Positions 3,014 to 55,100 of a DNA stretch of 64,000 bases are shown here, one piece after another. This DNA is from Lagopus muta (taxonomy: Eukaryota; Chordata; Aves; Galliformes; Phasianidae). Where the stretch lies: contig NC_064444.1 of NCBI RefSeq assembly GCF_023343835.1, forward strand, positions 17,335,219 through 17,399,218, in the 5' to 3' direction. Position numbers and translations under genes: made by a program. Every line of letters begins with the position of its first letter. The first letter of the stretch is position 1. Under the pieces are notes generated by a model. That model was not told the DNA's origin, ran no database searches, and worked only from the letters and a program-made list of their open reading frames with translations.

Positions 3014-3165
3014 CTTGGATTCGCTTTGTGTCACCGGGCGGGGAGCGAAGCCCGGCTCCGGCCGCCGGCCAATGGGCTACGAGCGTGTCCACAATGGGGT
3101 CGCGCTGCCCGACGGGAAGCGGAGTCCAACCCGCCGCCTCCCGCCCGCCGTATGCAGTCGCTGGG

Positions 3166-3184
3166 ACTACACGTCCCGACAGGC
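3166..3184 (+). promoter_or_regulatory. THAP11/ZNF143-type element
   Basis: ACTACACGTCCCGACAGGC matches the pattern ACTACnnnTCCCrnnnnGC. It lies about 150 bp upstream of the RANBP10 start codon. Assignment is by motif only. Confidence 0.6.
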
Positions 3185-3280
3185 CCCGCGCGCGAGGCCC
3201 CGCCCCCTCCCGCAGCGCGCCGTGCTGTGGGAAACGTGTCTCCTCTGCGCGGGGCCGAGCGGCGTCGTGCCGCGCTCAGG

Positions 3281-3299
3281 ACTCCCGCTCCCAGAATGC
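3281..3299 (+). promoter_or_regulatory. THAP11/ZNF143-type element
   Basis: ACTCCCGCTCCCAGAATGC keeps the strong TCCCAGAATGC half and has a degenerate 5' half compared with ACTACAATTCCCAGAATGC. Confidence 0.6.
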
Positions 3300-33700: not shown

Positions 33701-36700
33701 TGCTTCCGAGGAAGCCGCTTGTCTGCTGCTCTCTCAAATTCAGACACGCTGAGTTTCTTTCTCTTCCTGGTCACGGGGAATGCAGTGACAGATGGATCCT
33801 CAGCAGCAAGGTCTGGCAATTGCAGTTCCACCCTATCAAAAAAAAAAAAATCAGGCCTTTAGTACAGGACATTATTATTCAGTTATATGCCCCGTAACGT
33901 TGCTCAAAATTAAATGGAAATTATTTGTCCTTTCTGTAGCAGAAATAATGAACTAATTAATCAAGGATTAGCTCAGCAAATATGGGAAACTCTGTTGTTC
34001 TTGCATACTAAAACAAATTTTGCTAGGTAAGAGAAACAAAACTTAAGTGCATATTCAGAAGGACAGGGATGAGAAACTTCAGGCTACGGTAGAAGTCTGG
34101 GCTCCCAAAACATTCCAAAGCTCTCTTCACCTAATGGCACACAGAAAGGCTAGGAGGAAGAAGGAAAAAAAGTCTGCACTTGTTTAACTTCAGCAACTAG
34201 CTGAATGTAAGTCTGCAGATATCTAACCACCTGATCTTTTAACACAGACTGATGAGACATACATTTCAAGATGTGCAGGAACTCCAATAGGCAAAATCAA
34301 GAAGGTCCTGAGATTACACTGCTCATCTGGTTTGATTTTTAGAAAGGAATGAAGTTACAGCACTCACAGCAACCCAGACTTCCTCTATCAAAGAGCAGAC
34401 AGAAGTTTGCTTAGTATTTTACAGGACCCGTTTTGTTTACTGGCAATGCAAAAGTTTAGCTATAAAAATCACACTATTTATAACAGGTTACTTTATTTTG
34501 CAGTAAACAAAAATGCAGATGATTGCCTAAAGTGGTCAGAGCAAATGACTACCTGCCACCACTAGCAGCTTTGCTTGATTTCACAGTGGAAGGCTCAGGC
34601 CCGTTAACATAGCAGAATGGAAGCTGAACATGAACAAAAGCACGTGAACTCTGTGCAAATCCCACCTGCAAACCACCCTACAGGAGAGCAAGTAACCCAC
34701 AGCAGCCCAGTACAGGGACAAGAAGCAGCAGTAACACTGTAGAAACAACAGCAGCAACCTGTTTTCTGAACATAAGAGAGAGCAGTCAGTCATTCCCACA
34801 CTTTACGCCCCAGTATCTTCAGCACACAGCCTGGAGACTTGCAAAGATCCAAGAGCTTTTATTGTAGCATCTATGATAGACAGTTTAGCAGAGACTTCCA
34901 TCAGAAGACTTTTTGTATCCAGCAAGTACTTCCACTGTAAAAGGCTATTAAAAGTCTGCATTTAAAAAAGAGGACTAGTACAAACACGAGGTATCTACTG
35001 TTCACTCCCAGTGTACTTTTGGTACTTTTAAAGCTGAAAAGATTACTTCTGAAAATCACAAAACACAAACCTGACTGCTGAAACAGAAGGAATCCTGCTC
35101 CTCAATTCCAGCAGAAAAGAAACTGCAGCTACATTTGGTAGTGTAAAAAAACAAACAAACAAACACCAAAGTGCTCACGTGCTAGAAGTCCTCTGAGATG
35201 GAGGCTCTGGTTGAGCATCTTCTCCTTCTTCCAACTTAACTGTCTGAAGTGCTAGAGGTGACACTTGTGGTTCTGTCAACAAAACCAAACATTCTGGTTT
35301 CCACATCTCAAACTGGCAACAGTGTCAAAACGCAGCCTGGGACTTTTCAGTCTAGAGAAGAGAATGCTGAGAAGGAGTCTCAGAGCTACAAGTATCTAAA
35401 ATGCAGGTGTCAAATCTGTGGGGGCTGACTTTCTCAGCAAGAGGAGAACAAGGGGCAGTGGGCAGAATCTGGAACATAGGAAGTTGTAAACCAACACAAG
35501 GAAGAACTTTCTTACTGTGAGGGCAACAGAGTGCTGGAAGAGGCTGCCAAGAGAAGTGGAGAAGTCTACTTCTCTATTCAAGACCCGTCTGAATGTTTTC
35601 CTGAGAGACTCTAGAGGTCCCCTCCAACCCCTACAATATTGTGATTCCATGAAAGAATCAAAAACACACTACGGTCTTAAAATTACACTTATGAACAGGT
35701 TAAAACAAAGACCAATTGCAAAGCATTTGGATTCCCCTCCTAGGAGAGCTGGCACATAGGCTGACAAACCAACGCTGACAAATGGCAGCATCAGCGTTCC
35801 ACCATCTACAGAGCTTTGGTTTGCCACTGTGAGCAGCAAGCACCTCTGCACCTTACACACCATCTCAGGGCAGCAGGCAGCACCAGGGCTGCCAGGGGAA
35901 AGAAAACAACAAAGATAACCTTCCACAGTTTTCACCAATGGAAGACCTGGTGTTTGAAGCTGCATGGCATAACAGAATCACAGAATGGTTCGGGTTGGAA
36001 GGGACCTCAAGGATCGTGAAGCTCTAACCCCTCCACCACAGGCAGGGCCACCAACCTCCACATTTCATAGCAGCCCAGGCTGCCCAGGGCCCCATCCAAC
36101 CTGGCCTTGAACACCTCCAGGGATGGACGGGGCATCCACAGCCTCTCTGGGCAGCTGTTCCAGCACCTCACCACTCTCATAGTACACAACTTCCCCCTGA
36201 CATCCAACCTCAATCACCCCTCCCTCAATTTCAAACCATTTCCCCTTGTCCTGCAGTTATCAACCCTTTCAAAGAGTTGATTCCCCATTGATAATCTTGC
36301 ACAGCTGTCATTTGCTGCACTTCTACTTGATGCTTTGCTAAGAACAGGGATCTGCTCACGGTTCTGGATGATCCTCCTCAGCATGAGGCGCGGCGTAGCG
36401 TTGTCCAGCTCAGACAAGGCATTGGGCCTATACCTCAGCGGGGTGCTGCTGCCAGCCTTGTTCTCCTTCCCTGAACCAGATCCGCTCTGAGAACAGACAC
36501 CAAAGACAAGCAGCTCAACGACCCGCGGGAGGGATGCACTTTAGCATTAAAATCACCCGTATCTACCTTGAAATGAAAGCCAAACGTGACTTATAGCACA
36601 CCTACCCCAGATTCCTATGAGGAAACACTGCAATTTTACTTAGCAAAGCTTTCAGCTGAAAACAATCCCGCCCTCGAAGCTCGGCTCCAAATAACTCCTC

Positions 36701-36903
36701 ACAGACAGCAACCCCTAGCTCACCTCCCTCTGCCCCGCAACAACCGCCCAGAAAGAGATGAATAAAGAGCTCTCCCGTACCGCAGCAGACACAACGGGCT
36801 CCCGCTCCTTTACCCGAGCTCGGTGCCTCGGAGACGCCCTGACGGCGACCCTTGGGGTGCGGGCCGCCCCACGATCGGCTCGGAGCCCGGCCCTGCCGGC
36901 CAT
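21755..36903 (-). CDS. CENPT: CENPT, centromere protein T (13 coding exons)
   Basis: Inner-kinetochore (CCAN) protein: its histone fold pairs with CENP-W on centromeric DNA and its N-terminus recruits Ndc80 when CDK-phosphorylated. Coding exons in gene order: 36903-36781, 36486-36360, 35272-35179, 33832-33699, 32788-32758, 31616-31474, 31012-30602, 28286-28113, 27394-27185, 25517-25412, 24604-24437, 23620-23516, 21878-21755. Phases agree throughout and give 649 residues. Start MAGRAGLRADRGAARTPR. T72-P73 (NATPRLMLRRI) and S88-P89 (QVSPLALQ) match the published chicken sites. Residues ~115-170 (VELQLPDLA, HSSLDSTLVRSL) match human LELQLPELE and SSLTRSL. Residues ~218-517 are acidic, Ser/Glu-rich and disordered-looking. 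Histone fold ~542-649 (IKQIFSHYV, VTRDAYKIVEKC, YFKQISSDLEAYSQHAGR, LVTDKMPLHVLVERHLPLEY). The linker exons are least certain; an extra or skipped exon there is possible. Confidence 0.9.
23516..24604 (-). other. CENPT: CENPT exons 11-12: first part of the histone fold
   Basis: Exon 24604-24437 carries a basic Pro-rich lead-in and the first fold helix region (EIASRLIKQIFSHYV). Exon 23620-23516 carries the long alpha-2 helix (YFKQISSDLEAYSQHAGR) and the start of the next (VEMADVELLLRR). Split codons TG|C and AG|G join them to each other and to the final exon at 21878. Confidence 0.9.
28740..28882 (+). repeat. CR1 LINE internal fragment
   Basis: AGGACAAGAGGAAATGGTTT, then GGAAAGATTTAGACTAGATG, then GGAAATCCTTTACTCAGAGG: the segment upstream of the CR1 3' end, whose tail is missing. 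In CENPT intron 7, antisense to the gene. Confidence 0.75.
32758..32788 (-). other. CENPT: CENPT 31-nt microexon
   Basis: Acceptor in a T-rich tract (T-run, then TTTAAG|CTCATT), donor GTTCG|GTGAGT. It encodes HSSLDSTLV plus split codons on both sides. It is the only exon found that reconciles the phases of its neighbours (1-nt end at 33699, 1-nt start at 31616), and it matches human ASSLTRSL. Confidence 0.85.
35334..35655 (+). repeat. CR1 LINE 3'-end fragment
   Basis: Contains TTTTCAGTCTAGAGAAGAGA, GGAAGAACTTTCTTACTGTG, CAACAGAGTGCTGGAAGAGG and ends CCCCTCCAACCCCTACAAT..TGTGATTCC. In CENPT intron 2, antisense to the gene. The left end is set by eye. Confidence 0.8.
35969..36282 (-). repeat. 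CR1 LINE 3'-end fragment close to CENPT exon 2
   Basis: Reverse-complement CR1 from the tail (CAGAATCACAGAATGGTTCG) to CCTTTCAAAGAGTTGATTCC. Same subfamily as the copy at 4093. It lies in CENPT intron 2, in sense with the gene, with its 5'-truncated end about 78 bases downstream of the preferred exon 2 donor. Confidence 0.9.
36360..36486 (-). other. CENPT: CENPT exon 2: Ndc80-binding segment with T72
   Basis: Acceptor TGTTCTCAG|AGCGGA. It encodes about residues 42-84, including TPLRYRPN and the CDK-type site at T72. Three donors give a usable phase: 36360 (AACC|GTGAGC), 36327 (TCAA|GTAGAA) and 36321 (AGAA|GTGCAG). 36360 is preferred because it places Ser-Pro at residue 88, as in published chicken CENP-T. 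Confidence 0.8.
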
Positions 36904-36955
36904 GGCGGAGCCCTCAGATAACCGTCGCGTCGAAAGCCGCGCGCTCACGGCGCGG

Positions 36956-36975
36956 TCTCGCGAGATCTCGCGACG
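36956..36975 (+). promoter_or_regulatory. Tandem BANP-type TCTCGCGAGA element
   Basis: A perfect 10-bp palindrome TCTCGCGAGA (36956-36965) is followed with no gap by TCTCGCGACG (36966-36975). This palindrome is the reported BANP binding motif of CpG-island promoters. It lies 53-72 bp upstream of the CENPT start codon. Confidence 0.7.
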
Positions 36976-37000
36976 CCCGACGGGAGGCGCCGCGCCGCGG

Positions 37001-37020
37001 GGCACGCCGGGAACGGTAGT
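37001..37020 (-). promoter_or_regulatory. THAP11/ZNF143-type element (site A)
   Basis: On the minus strand, ACTACCGTTCCCGGCGTGCC. Fits ACTACnnnTCCC with a GC-containing 3' end. Confidence 0.65.
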
Positions 37021-37033
37021 TTTGAAGCGCAGC

Positions 37034-37052
37034 GCAGTGTGGGGCGCGTAGT
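37034..37052 (-). promoter_or_regulatory. THAP11/ZNF143-type element (site B)
   Basis: On the minus strand, ACTACGCGCCCCACACTGC. One mismatch in the TCCCA core. Confidence 0.55.
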
Positions 37053-37098
37053 TCCGGCGCGGCGCTGAGGCGGCGCTCGGCCTCCCGCTCCCCGCGCT

Positions 37099-37117
37099 GC
37101 ATTGTGGGCCGCGTAGT
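37099..37117 (-). promoter_or_regulatory. THAP11/ZNF143-type element (site C)
   Basis: On the minus strand, ACTACGCGGCCCACAATGC. Strong 5' ACTAC and 3' CAATGC; one core mismatch. Confidence 0.65.
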
Positions 37118-37169
37118 TCCGGTGCGGCCCGGGCGGGCGGCGTCGGCGAACGGCGAGAGGCCGCGGTTG

Positions 37170-37188
37170 GCCTTGTGGGAGCTGTAGT
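37170..37188 (-). promoter_or_regulatory. THAP11/ZNF143-type element (site D)
   Basis: On the minus strand, ACTACAGCTCCCACAAGGC, a full match to ACTACAnnTCCCAnnnnGC. It ends 41 bases before the THAP11 ATG, so it overlaps the 5' UTR or start site. Confidence 0.7.
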
Positions 37189-37229
37189 CCGGCGGGGGGC
37201 CCGCGTCCGCGCCCCGAGGGACCCCCGCC

Positions 37230-37955
37230 ATGCCGGGCTTCACCTGCTGCGTGCCGGGCTGCTACAACAACTCGCACCGCGACAAGGCGCTGCATTTCTA
37301 CACCTTCCCCAAGGACGAGGAGCTGAGGCGCCTCTGGCTGAAGAACGTCTCCCGGGCAGGCGTCAGCGGCTGCTTCAGCACCTTCCAGCCCACCACCGGC
37401 CACCGGGTCTGCAGCGAGCACTTCCAGGGCGGCCGCAAGTCCTACCTGGTGCGGGTGCCCACCATCTTCCCGCTGCGCGGCGTCAACGAGCGCAAAGCAG
37501 CGCGGGCCGCCCGCCGCCCCCGCCCCGCCGCCGCCTCCGCCGCCGCCGCCACCGTCGTCGTCGCCCCGCAGGGCCCCGGCCCCGCCGCCGAGGCCCCGGT
37601 AGGGGGCGCGGCCGAGGACGTGAAGCCCATCGACCTGACGGTGCAGGTGGAGCTCGGGGCCGCCGCTGCCGGGCCCGGCCCCTGCTGGTTGCCGGTAGGT
37701 CAGGAAGGCCCCGTGGAAGGCGGCCCGCCGGACCACTCGTACTCCTTGTCGTCCGGCACCACGTCGGAGGAGCTGCTGAGGAAGCTGAACGAGCAACGTG
37801 ACATCATCGCTCTGCTGGAGGTAAAGATGAAGGAGATGAAGGGCAGCATCCGCCGCCTGCGTCTGGCCGAGGCCCAGCTCCGCGAGGAGATCCGAGAGAA
37901 AGACCGGCTGCTCCATGCCGCCAGCGTCGGGGCCCGAAAGCGCCACGGGCTCTGA
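37230..37955 (+). CDS. THAP11: THAP11 (Ronin), THAP zinc-finger transcription factor, single exon
   Basis: THAP11 binds DNA with HCF-1 and ZNF143 at promoters of growth and metabolic genes and is needed for embryonic stem-cell growth. 241 codons, intronless as in mammals. Residues 1-81 form the C2CH THAP finger: Cys6/7, Cys11, then Cys61-x2-His64, the VPTIF motif at 76-80, and PLRGVNERK as in human. Residues ~88-130 are Ala/Pro/Arg-rich, where human has a long polyglutamine tract; no Gln run is present. [13 protein letters not shown] (129-141) is conserved. DHSY (168-171) is the HCF-1-binding motif. A Leu/Glu/Lys-rich coiled coil spans ~178-229, followed by a basic C-terminus (ARKRHGL). The start has G at -3 and matches the human [11 protein letters not shown]. 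Four elements resembling its own binding site lie just upstream. Confidence 0.97.
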
Positions 37956-43322: not shown

Positions 43323-43341
43323 GCACGTCGGGATTTGTAGT
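43323..43341 (-). promoter_or_regulatory. THAP11/ZNF143-type element in the NUTF2 promoter
   Basis: On the minus strand, ACTACAAATCCCGACGTGC. It lies about 165 bp upstream of the exon 1 donor. Confidence 0.65.
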
Positions 43342-43439
43342 CCCGCACTCCCAGCTCAACGCGGGGCGCCGCCTCCAGCCGGACTCGTTTTCCCGGCGCG
43401 CATCGGGACGGGGCCGGGCCGTGTGGGGCGGGGCGGGGA

Positions 43440-52181: not shown

Positions 52182-55100
52182 ATGGGAGACAAGCCTATCT
52201 GGGAGCAGATTGGGTCCAGCTTCGTACAACATTACTACCAGCTTTTTGATGCAGACAGGACTCAGTTAGGAGCAATATATGTAAGTAGTAAAGATGCCCT
52301 GTCACATCTCATGTGGGATAGTGGGTTTTAACCTGACTTGGAATATCAGTCAGTGCAGCTGCACTTGCTGCACTTACAGTTTTTGCCTCCAGAAGATTCA
52401 GAGTGCTCTGTGTGATTACTGGTGGTGAGGAATGCTGCTGAGTGGCTGGGCTGTTTCAGCAAGGCACTCAGGTCTGACGAGTCTTCCAGCAGCATGTCCT
52501 GTTTTTCTGACCCTTGCTGAATGAGTCATATCAAGTTTCACCAAGTTCTGGAGGATTTAAGGTGTAGGAGCACTGTCTGATTTTCCCCCCCCCCCCCCCC
52601 CCCCACCTCAGCAGTCTCTACCAACACTGATAGCATTTGCTCTTTGGATTCTTGTGTTTGCTAGCTGTTGCCTTGTTTTGACAAAGGAGCCGTGAACAGA
52701 GAAGCCCATAAAGCAGGGAAAAACAAGTAGCCAATGTTTAATCACAACTCTAAATATGAAGGCACTTGGCAGTTCCTGTCATGCCATTGCTAAAATGCTT
52801 CAAATCTTCAGAAGACTGGTAATAAGTACAGGGTAATTAATTCTGGAAACATGGCCATCCATACAATGAACTCATGTGCTTTTTTTCTGCCCTTGGGGCC
52901 TTTTTACCTTTCATCAGCATTCAGTGGAGGTACCTATGCAGGAGCAGGCTGTGTTATGCAGCTCACTGATGTAGTGTTTGGTGGAGTTCCATGAATATGA
53001 AGCTTTTTGCCTGTTGCTGTTGCACCTGCTGTAGTGTGCTCTGCATGCTCTCTCTCTCTCGTACATGGGAAGAGCTTTTAGGCTGAAGCATCTCAGTCGT
53101 TTTGTGCCACGCAGGGCTGGCAATCTGTTAGAAAGCCTTTAGAGGCACATCCCACTTTGCTGGGTGTGAATAGGAAATGCAGGTTGGTACCTTAGTTGAA
53201 TAAAGTGTGACGTTACAAGACATTTTTATCAGGTTTCATTTATTCTCTATGTGTGCTTGACTTGTGTCCATACTTTTAGACTTTCTCATGAAAGCTAACT
53301 TAAATCCAGAGCCAGGAACTTTTTTTCTGCTGATAGAATCACGGTAGTGAAACTTAATCTACTTGATTTTCACCTGACAGTTCTAAACTATTTCAGTTGC
53401 TCTTTGTGGCTTCTTCCCATCTCCCTTTGAGGTAGTTTACAAATAGCTGGATTCTAAGAATAAATACCAAGTAAGCAAAACCTCTTAATGAGATTTGTGA
53501 AGCATTACTTAAGCAGGCTGATGATCTTTGTTTTTCCTTTTCCCTCAGATTGATGCATCATGCCTTACGTGGGAAGGACAGCAGTTCCAGGGCAAAGCAG
53601 CTATCGTTGAAAAACTCTCTGTAAGTCTTTAATCCCTCCTGAATGTTTTGGGGAAACAATGCTGCAGACTGCTAATGAGCTGCCTCTTAAAAGTGTGATT
53701 TAGGTTCTAGAGTGAAGAACCTGGGTTTCCCTCAGTGCAGCATACCTTGGCTTTTCTGATATGGGTAGTTACAGCTATGTTTCAGTGCTGTGAAGTCAGC
53801 GTTTCTTCTTGCATCAAGTCAGAGGAAAGTATTTTGTAACGTACCAGACTGAAACTCTCCATCCATGTTTCTAGTTAAACTTGGAGAAGTTTTATCTTTT
53901 TGAGATATGCCTTTTCTATAAAAATGAGCGTGCTTATAAGCTGTTGTGGGATCAGAAACTTTTTCTCTTGCAAGATATGTGGAACATGTGCTTTATAGCT
54001 CTGATGTTCTGTTCCAGGCATGGTATGTCAAACAATGTGACAGTTTCAGGCTTTCTATCTTGCACTTTGAGAAGAAAATCTTTGTTGTTTTTCCACGTGT
54101 GGTGTTATACAGCTCTTCCTCCTGTATTTTGGGATCAGTGCTTTCATCCAAGATGTCTTTAACTGAGATGTAAAGGCTGAGATTTACTCTTAGCTTTGAG
54201 TTTTAGGTGCCTGCATTGCTTTTGAGAAGGCCACGCACCTCAGAAATAGTACAGCTTGCAACTCACTTCTAGATGAGGAGTGAGGAGATAATCACGCTCT
54301 AGAGTTGCTTGTTTACTCAGTGTTCCTTAGGCAGCCAATTAGACACCCAACCAGCTAAAATTTGCCTGGCCCTAGCATCTCAGGCTGCTGCACTGGATCT
54401 GGTCCAGTGCAGATCAGCCTCTTTCCCATCTGAGTGTTGTATCATCTTTTCATCTTACCTTTTTGTGGTGGGAGTTGGACTCTGTGCGTTCACGTGCTGG
54501 CTGCACAGTCTTGCTTGGTGAATGGAGGCATATTTCTTTTCCCCAAGGAAGTATTTTGATTGCATCCATCTGCTTAAAGGAAGGAAGAAATGCAGTAAGA
54601 TAATTCTGTGCCCTCCCCTACCATGGCTTGTTATGGGACTGCAGCATCTTACCCTGACTCTTGCTCTGTAGCTGTCAGCACTGAGCTACGTGGGTTTTGT
54701 TTGCTCCTTTAACCTAATTTGTACACCTGCTCTCTTTGTGCTTCTGAAGTGTCTGAGCATTGTTGGGCACGTTGCTGAAGATTTGGCACTGGAGTTCTTT
54801 TGCACTTCTGTGATCCTGTGTTCTTTGGGCCCTAAACACAAAGAGGCAGGTTTTTCTCTTAACAGCGAGATCTCTGCTGTATTATAGCAAAGCTACAGCA
54901 CCTCTCAGCCTGCTCTGTCAGATGATGCTGATACAACTGGGCAAGGTCACAAAGACACTGCTTTGCAAGCACTTGCACCCTTGTTAAAGAGTGGGAGCTG
55001 ACACACATGCCTTCTGTCTTAACTGGTGCTGGGTGAAAGAATCATCTCAGAGTGCCTGTTTGCTTTCAGCATTTGGGGTAATCCTGTAGTTCCAGGAGCT

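Follow-up and report, generated by a model that had tools for sequence, protein, structure and literature searches.

A graded array of four ZNF143/THAP11-type elements in the divergent CENPT/THAP11 promoter of Lagopus muta

The short divergent promoter between CENPT and THAP11 carries a graded, non-random array of four elements, all of them on the minus strand, of which one is of ordinary strength and three are weak. The array is real but mostly expected, being a bird example of a promoter type that was already known, and it extends to a bird a promoter arrangement that has been studied in human and mouse. The reading that we favour, with a probability of roughly 0.6, is that of a housekeeping promoter shared by CENPT and THAP11 in which the output of THAP11 is set mainly by ZNF143. 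Four elements alone do not prove that THAP11 controls its own gene.

The divergent promoter and its elements

Within the window, which is the whole stretch of 64,000 nucleotides analysed here, 326 bp of CpG-island DNA separate the putative start codon of CENPT from the start codon of THAP11, and the region 36900-37229 has a GC content of 0.77 with 62 CpG in 330 bp. The identity of the minus-strand partner as CENPT is well supported by sequence at the far end of the gene, where the exon at 21761-21880 matches the PDB chains of Centromere protein T and agrees with 3b0c_T, presumably a chicken protein, at all but one of 39 aligned residues. Its putative first coding exon (36814-36903, minus strand) was placed on the basis of an ATG at 36903, 30 codons followed by a GTAA donor, and an in-frame next exon, likewise putative, that starts at 36486 and holds the peptide TPRLMLRRI, which we take to be CENP-T-like. 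The gene at 37230 on the plus strand is, by its predicted protein, well supported as THAP11: the coding sequence (37230-37955) is a single open frame of 241 amino acids with a THAP domain (Pfam, E 2.9e-14), a coiled coil and a DHSY stretch of the D/EHxY type, defined as an HCF-1-binding motif in the available part of PMC6944463, and it matches the PDB entries 2lau (zinc finger, E 3.5e-50) and 5ajs (coiled coil, E 2.5e-25). The PDB and Pfam matches agree with the CENPT and THAP11 identities given to the flanking genes in the original prediction, the start codon of CENPT remaining a putative one.

Between these two start codons, and so in the CpG-island position near the start that is typical of the class discussed below, lie all four of the predicted minus-strand copies of the long motif ACTACnnnTCCCAnnnnGC, except that the first begins at 37002 and not at 37001. 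Element 1 (ACTACCGTTCCCGGCGTGC, 37002-37020), element 2 (ACTACGCGCCCCACACTGC, 37034-37052) and element 3 (ACTACGCGGCCCACAATGC, 37099-37117) each have one mismatch to the motif and score 27.6, 13.7 and 19.4 bits, respectively, against the genome-derived matrix described in the next section, and element 4 (ACTACAGCTCCCACAAGGC, 37170-37188) has no mismatch and scores 20.9 bits. From start to start the elements are spaced by 32, 65 and 71 bp, with 41 bp between element 4 and the THAP11 start codon.

The M4 core, which serves to recognize the ZNF143/THAP11 composite element (SBS2/M4/RBM), has the consensus ACTAYRNNNCCCR; it is matched exactly by three of the four elements (2, 3 and 4), and element 1 departs from it once, with a C at position 6 where A or G is expected. 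The ZNF143-type 3' tail (GC, then a CCGCG-type sequence) is full in element 1, which ends in the complete CCCCGCG found at ZNF143-type sites, partial in elements 2 and 3, and poor in element 4. The four elements are assigned to the ZNF143/THAP11 class. The available text of PMC5006282 divides M4 into two parts, ACTAYR for THAP11 and the CCCR side, which a ZNF143 site overlaps. The bird promoter resembles the housekeeping promoters that carry M4/RBM/SBS2 in the sequence of its elements, in their CpG-island position near a start codon and in their clustering.

Chance, site strength and the other islands of the window

The original prediction was accompanied by a proposal to compare the motif density with that of shuffled sequence, and for near-exact sites this comparison came out in favour of the four copies. 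When 36900-37229 was shuffled 2000 times with its dinucleotides preserved, no copy of the long motif within one mismatch appeared, against four observed, and M4 came up at a mean of 0.004 per shuffle against three observed. Since no comparable site arose in these shuffles, the four elements are not CpG noise. The matrix gave a similar picture, in that 1000 further shuffles of the THAP11 region yielded in total nine matches of at least 7 bits and a single one of at least 13 bits, compared with four observed matches of at least 13 bits in the region itself, and 200 kb of random sequence (twenty 10-kb stretches, all from contig C1) contained no match of at least 7 bits. What speaks for chance matching in GC-rich DNA is that, when up to three mismatches are allowed, the whole window shows no enrichment (50 matches observed compared with 45.39 expected, with 28 of 100 shuffles reaching at least 50), and the signal is therefore confined to near-exact sites. 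In view of the results for near-exact sites, we regard chance as an extremely improbable explanation of the array.

The exact long motif is found 367 times in the 1.03-Gb assembly compared with 26 times for the reversed pattern, which indicates that the motif is in use in the bird genome. For the matrix, the first 100 of the 367 exact matches, on contigs C1 and C2, were merged to 93 stretches of 1 kb, 49 of which are CpG-island-like, and the 69 sites that these 49 loci hold within one mismatch of the motif were used for training, leaving out the other 44 loci. The majority sequence of the 69 training sites is GGACTACANCTCCCAGCATGC, followed by a CCGCG-type tail. Because these sites were selected at no more than one mismatch, the matrix is biased to the positions of the exact pattern, and the 49 comparison loci, having been picked for an exact site, are a sample of motif-bearing and not of neutral CpG islands.

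To rank the elements we used 81 genomic sites of at least 10 bits, each scored with its own locus omitted. The share of these sites scoring lower is 38% for element 1, 1% for element 2, 12% for element 3 and 15% for element 4. Element 1 is of ordinary strength, elements 2, 3 and 4 fall in the lowest 15%, and element 2, the weakest, scores below 80 of the 81; in this the bird promoter differs from the class at large, whose genomic sites are mostly stronger than three of the four copies at THAP11. When only the motif positions that had no part in the choice of training sites are scored, elements 1 and 3 rank among the best 0.08% and 0.64%, respectively, of all positions in the 49 loci (p = 0.0008 and 0.0064), and elements 2 (p = 0.096) and 4 (p = 0.075) are not convincing singly on this test. 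By the genomic matrix the outermost element 1 (37002), which has the complete tail, is the best site, ahead of the copy at 37170 that matches the pattern exactly, and this shifts the emphasis within the array from the latter site to the former.

All nine matrix matches of at least 7 bits in the window are confined to three CpG islands within a span of 40 kb. Besides the CENPT/THAP11 promoter, one is at 3107-3299, with three matches in both orientations (18.1, 26.4 and 19.9 bits), at the 5' end of a gene that we take from its N-terminus to be RANBP10, the head-to-head partner of which is presumably TSNAXIP1. The other is a CpG-rich stretch at 43323-43401 with two matches (30.6 and 7.3 bits), the former being the highest single matrix score in the window; this stretch is probably the promoter of NUTF2, the first coding exon of which was located at 52182. 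In human, the TSNAXIP1 promoter belongs to the same set of ZNF143 promoter-bound genes as THAP11 (PMC11118474, available part).

Such a distribution would also be expected if the array were an anchor of a Ronin-dependent cluster joining the RANBP10, CENPT/THAP11 and NUTF2 promoters, with the sites serving looping and not self-control. The accessible text of PMC10329844 gives the Thap11 locus of mouse ES cells as an example of a Ronin-linked promoter cluster and reports that loops mostly cover 10-50 kb and that promoters with more motifs tend to have more loops. However, neighbouring housekeeping promoters that carry a housekeeping motif need no loops as an explanation, and Nutf2, Ranbp10, Edc4 and Cenpt are not named in the main text of PMC10329844 as far as it was available. 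We consider looping somewhat unlikely as the role of the array, and it is compatible with the favoured reading of a housekeeping promoter set by ZNF143.

Control of THAP11 and CENPT

The original prediction had taken the four copies to suggest that THAP11 directly regulates its own gene; of this, self-binding is better supported by human data than control of the transcript. Binding of THAP11 to its own promoter is reported for HEK-293 cells, at two neighbouring places that hold THAP11-associated motifs (PMC6944463, available part, with a citation of Dejosez 2010). The bird promoter belongs to the orthologue of this human and mouse (Ronin) gene and likewise has THAP11-associated motifs, but it carries four elements where the human promoter is marked with two motifs. 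Given the class of the elements and the occupancy in HEK-293 cells, THAP11 is likely, by analogy, to bind its own promoter in the bird. In the same human cells, however, the F80L substitution affects how THAP11 binds one of these places, with no change in THAP11 mRNA (PMC6944463), and in an inducible human line overexpression of THAP11-HA leaves the levels of THAP11, ZNF143 and ZNF76 unchanged (PMC3936768), in the parts of these papers that were available. Direct autoregulation of THAP11 is a less likely possibility; the two human tests of it that we found are negative.

One form that autoregulation could take is that of a dose sensor, whereby the weak elements are filled only at high levels of THAP11 and then lower transcription. 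The placement of three of the four elements within the lowest 15% of the 81 site scores would suit such a sensor, as would the presence of human THAP11 on its own promoter and the precedent of the ZNF143 gene, where low-affinity SBS sites that follow the main start site serve as sensors (PMC3936768, available text). In both cases a gene that encodes one of the two factors has weak sites of the class. They differ in that a response to overexpression was shown for the ZNF143 gene, with THAP11 as the non-responding control in that same report (PMC3936768), whereas the bird THAP11 promoter is known from its sequence. As endogenous human THAP11 is moved neither by THAP11-HA nor, at the mRNA level, by F80L, we think a true autoregulatory sensor unlikely.

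The evidence on ZNF143 comes from a preprint (PMC11118474, available part), in which THAP11 is among the genes repressed in cis by ZNF143. At THAP11 two ZNF143 ChIP peaks flank an unannotated start site, the use of which rises on loss of ZNF143; displacement of an ETS factor is suggested there, and the authors term the regulation not clear. Our favoured reading would join these observations to the sequence as follows. The CENPT/THAP11 promoter would be a bidirectional CpG-island promoter with a composite ZNF143/THAP11-HCF-1 array of one ordinary and three weak elements. As in mammals, ZNF143 and THAP11 would bind overlapping parts of the elements, and binding near the start sites would drive housekeeping initiation both ways. 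At THAP11, bound ZNF143 would, again by extension from mammals, restrain the output or shift the start site, so that, as we propose, the level of ZNF143 sets the level of THAP11. THAP11 itself would occupy the same sites, yet it would not chiefly govern the level of its own mRNA. Since in lymphocytes the CCCR half of M4 reportedly goes to Ikaros (PMC5006282, available text), the occupant of the elements may differ by cell type.

The strong and weak grading of the array is of practical use, as site-by-site mutation could part control by ZNF143 from self-control by THAP11. The coordinate control of CENPT that was also predicted is plausible in that it fits the head-to-head geometry of the two genes; our literature search found no work on the CENPT/THAP11 promoter in birds or on joint control of CENPT and THAP11.

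Duplication, orientation and neighbouring motifs

Elements 2 and 3 both sit in a 30-bp direct repeat, the copies of which (37034-37063, containing element 2, and 37099-37128, containing element 3) are identical at 27 of 30 positions and lie 65 bp apart, and it is for this reason that the two elements have CCGGAACTAC in common. Function may be limited to elements 1 and 4, or to element 1 alone, with drift having preserved elements 2 and 3 after a local duplication, in which case to speak of four copies overstates the array. The repeat itself, the position of element 2 at the bottom of the genomic ranking and the two motifs marked in the human promoter (PMC6944463, available part) are all consistent with this. 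On the other hand, M4 is exact in both copies of the repeat, and the independent positions favour element 3 over element 4 (p = 0.0064 compared with 0.075). We hold the drift explanation to be doubtful, though it is the most serious of the alternatives. A more elaborate use of the duplication, in which it grew in birds into a graded same-strand weak array that acts as a dose sensor for the balance of ZNF143 and THAP11 and reports to both THAP11 and CENPT, strikes us as improbable; if true, the sensor would also inform a kinetochore gene, CENPT.

In elements 2 and 3, CCGGA stands directly before ACTAC, which creates an ETS-like CCGGAA core overlapping ACTAC, and the only two occurrences of CCGGAA in the whole window are these, each fused to ACTAC. 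A fused ETS-ZNF143 site as a general grammar was rejected: the pattern CCGGAACTACNNNNCCC has eight matches genome-wide, two of which are elements 2 and 3 themselves, compared with 26 for the reversed pattern, and among the 69 comparison sites ACTAC is preceded by CCGGA in none and by GGA in four. The paired CCGGAA-ACTAC fusions are better explained by duplication than by such a grammar.

Arrays of four sites are uncommon but not unique. Four sites of at least 13 bits within 200 bp were found at two of the 49 CpG-island-like comparison loci (L001 and L061), and the idea that the THAP11 array is unique was rejected on that account. The four sites of L001 are on mixed strands. At the comparison loci 22 of the 32 pairs of neighbouring sites consist of copies that face opposite ways, whereas the THAP11 copies all point one way, as had been predicted, and a same-strand run of four is therefore less usual. 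L061 (G000:C1:174839270-174840270) has four same-strand sites with a spacing of 43-44 bp, three of them strong, and is more regular than the THAP11 array.

The 1.03-Gb genome has at least 23 pairs of M4 sites that share a strand and are separated by 40-70 bp, at 20 listed places, compared with 48 (17 + 31) in the reversed-pattern control, a figure that simple repeats may inflate; as a class, such pairs do not exceed this control, and we claim no enrichment of them. Successive same-strand pairs occur at two of the 20 listed places, THAP11 and C29:3434854-3435081. The latter (G000:C29:3434854-3435081) consists of four successive same-strand M4 sites with a period of 71-72 bp and has the look of a tandem array.

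The palindrome TCTCGCGAGA has its sole occurrence in the window at 36956-36965, and it resembles what we take to be a BANP-bound element; a literature search joining BANP, TCTCGCGAGA and ZNF143 returned nothing. The stretch 36956-36973 reads TCTCGCGAGATCTCGCGA, that is, the palindrome together with a second partial copy, and it lies between the CENPT start and the four elements.
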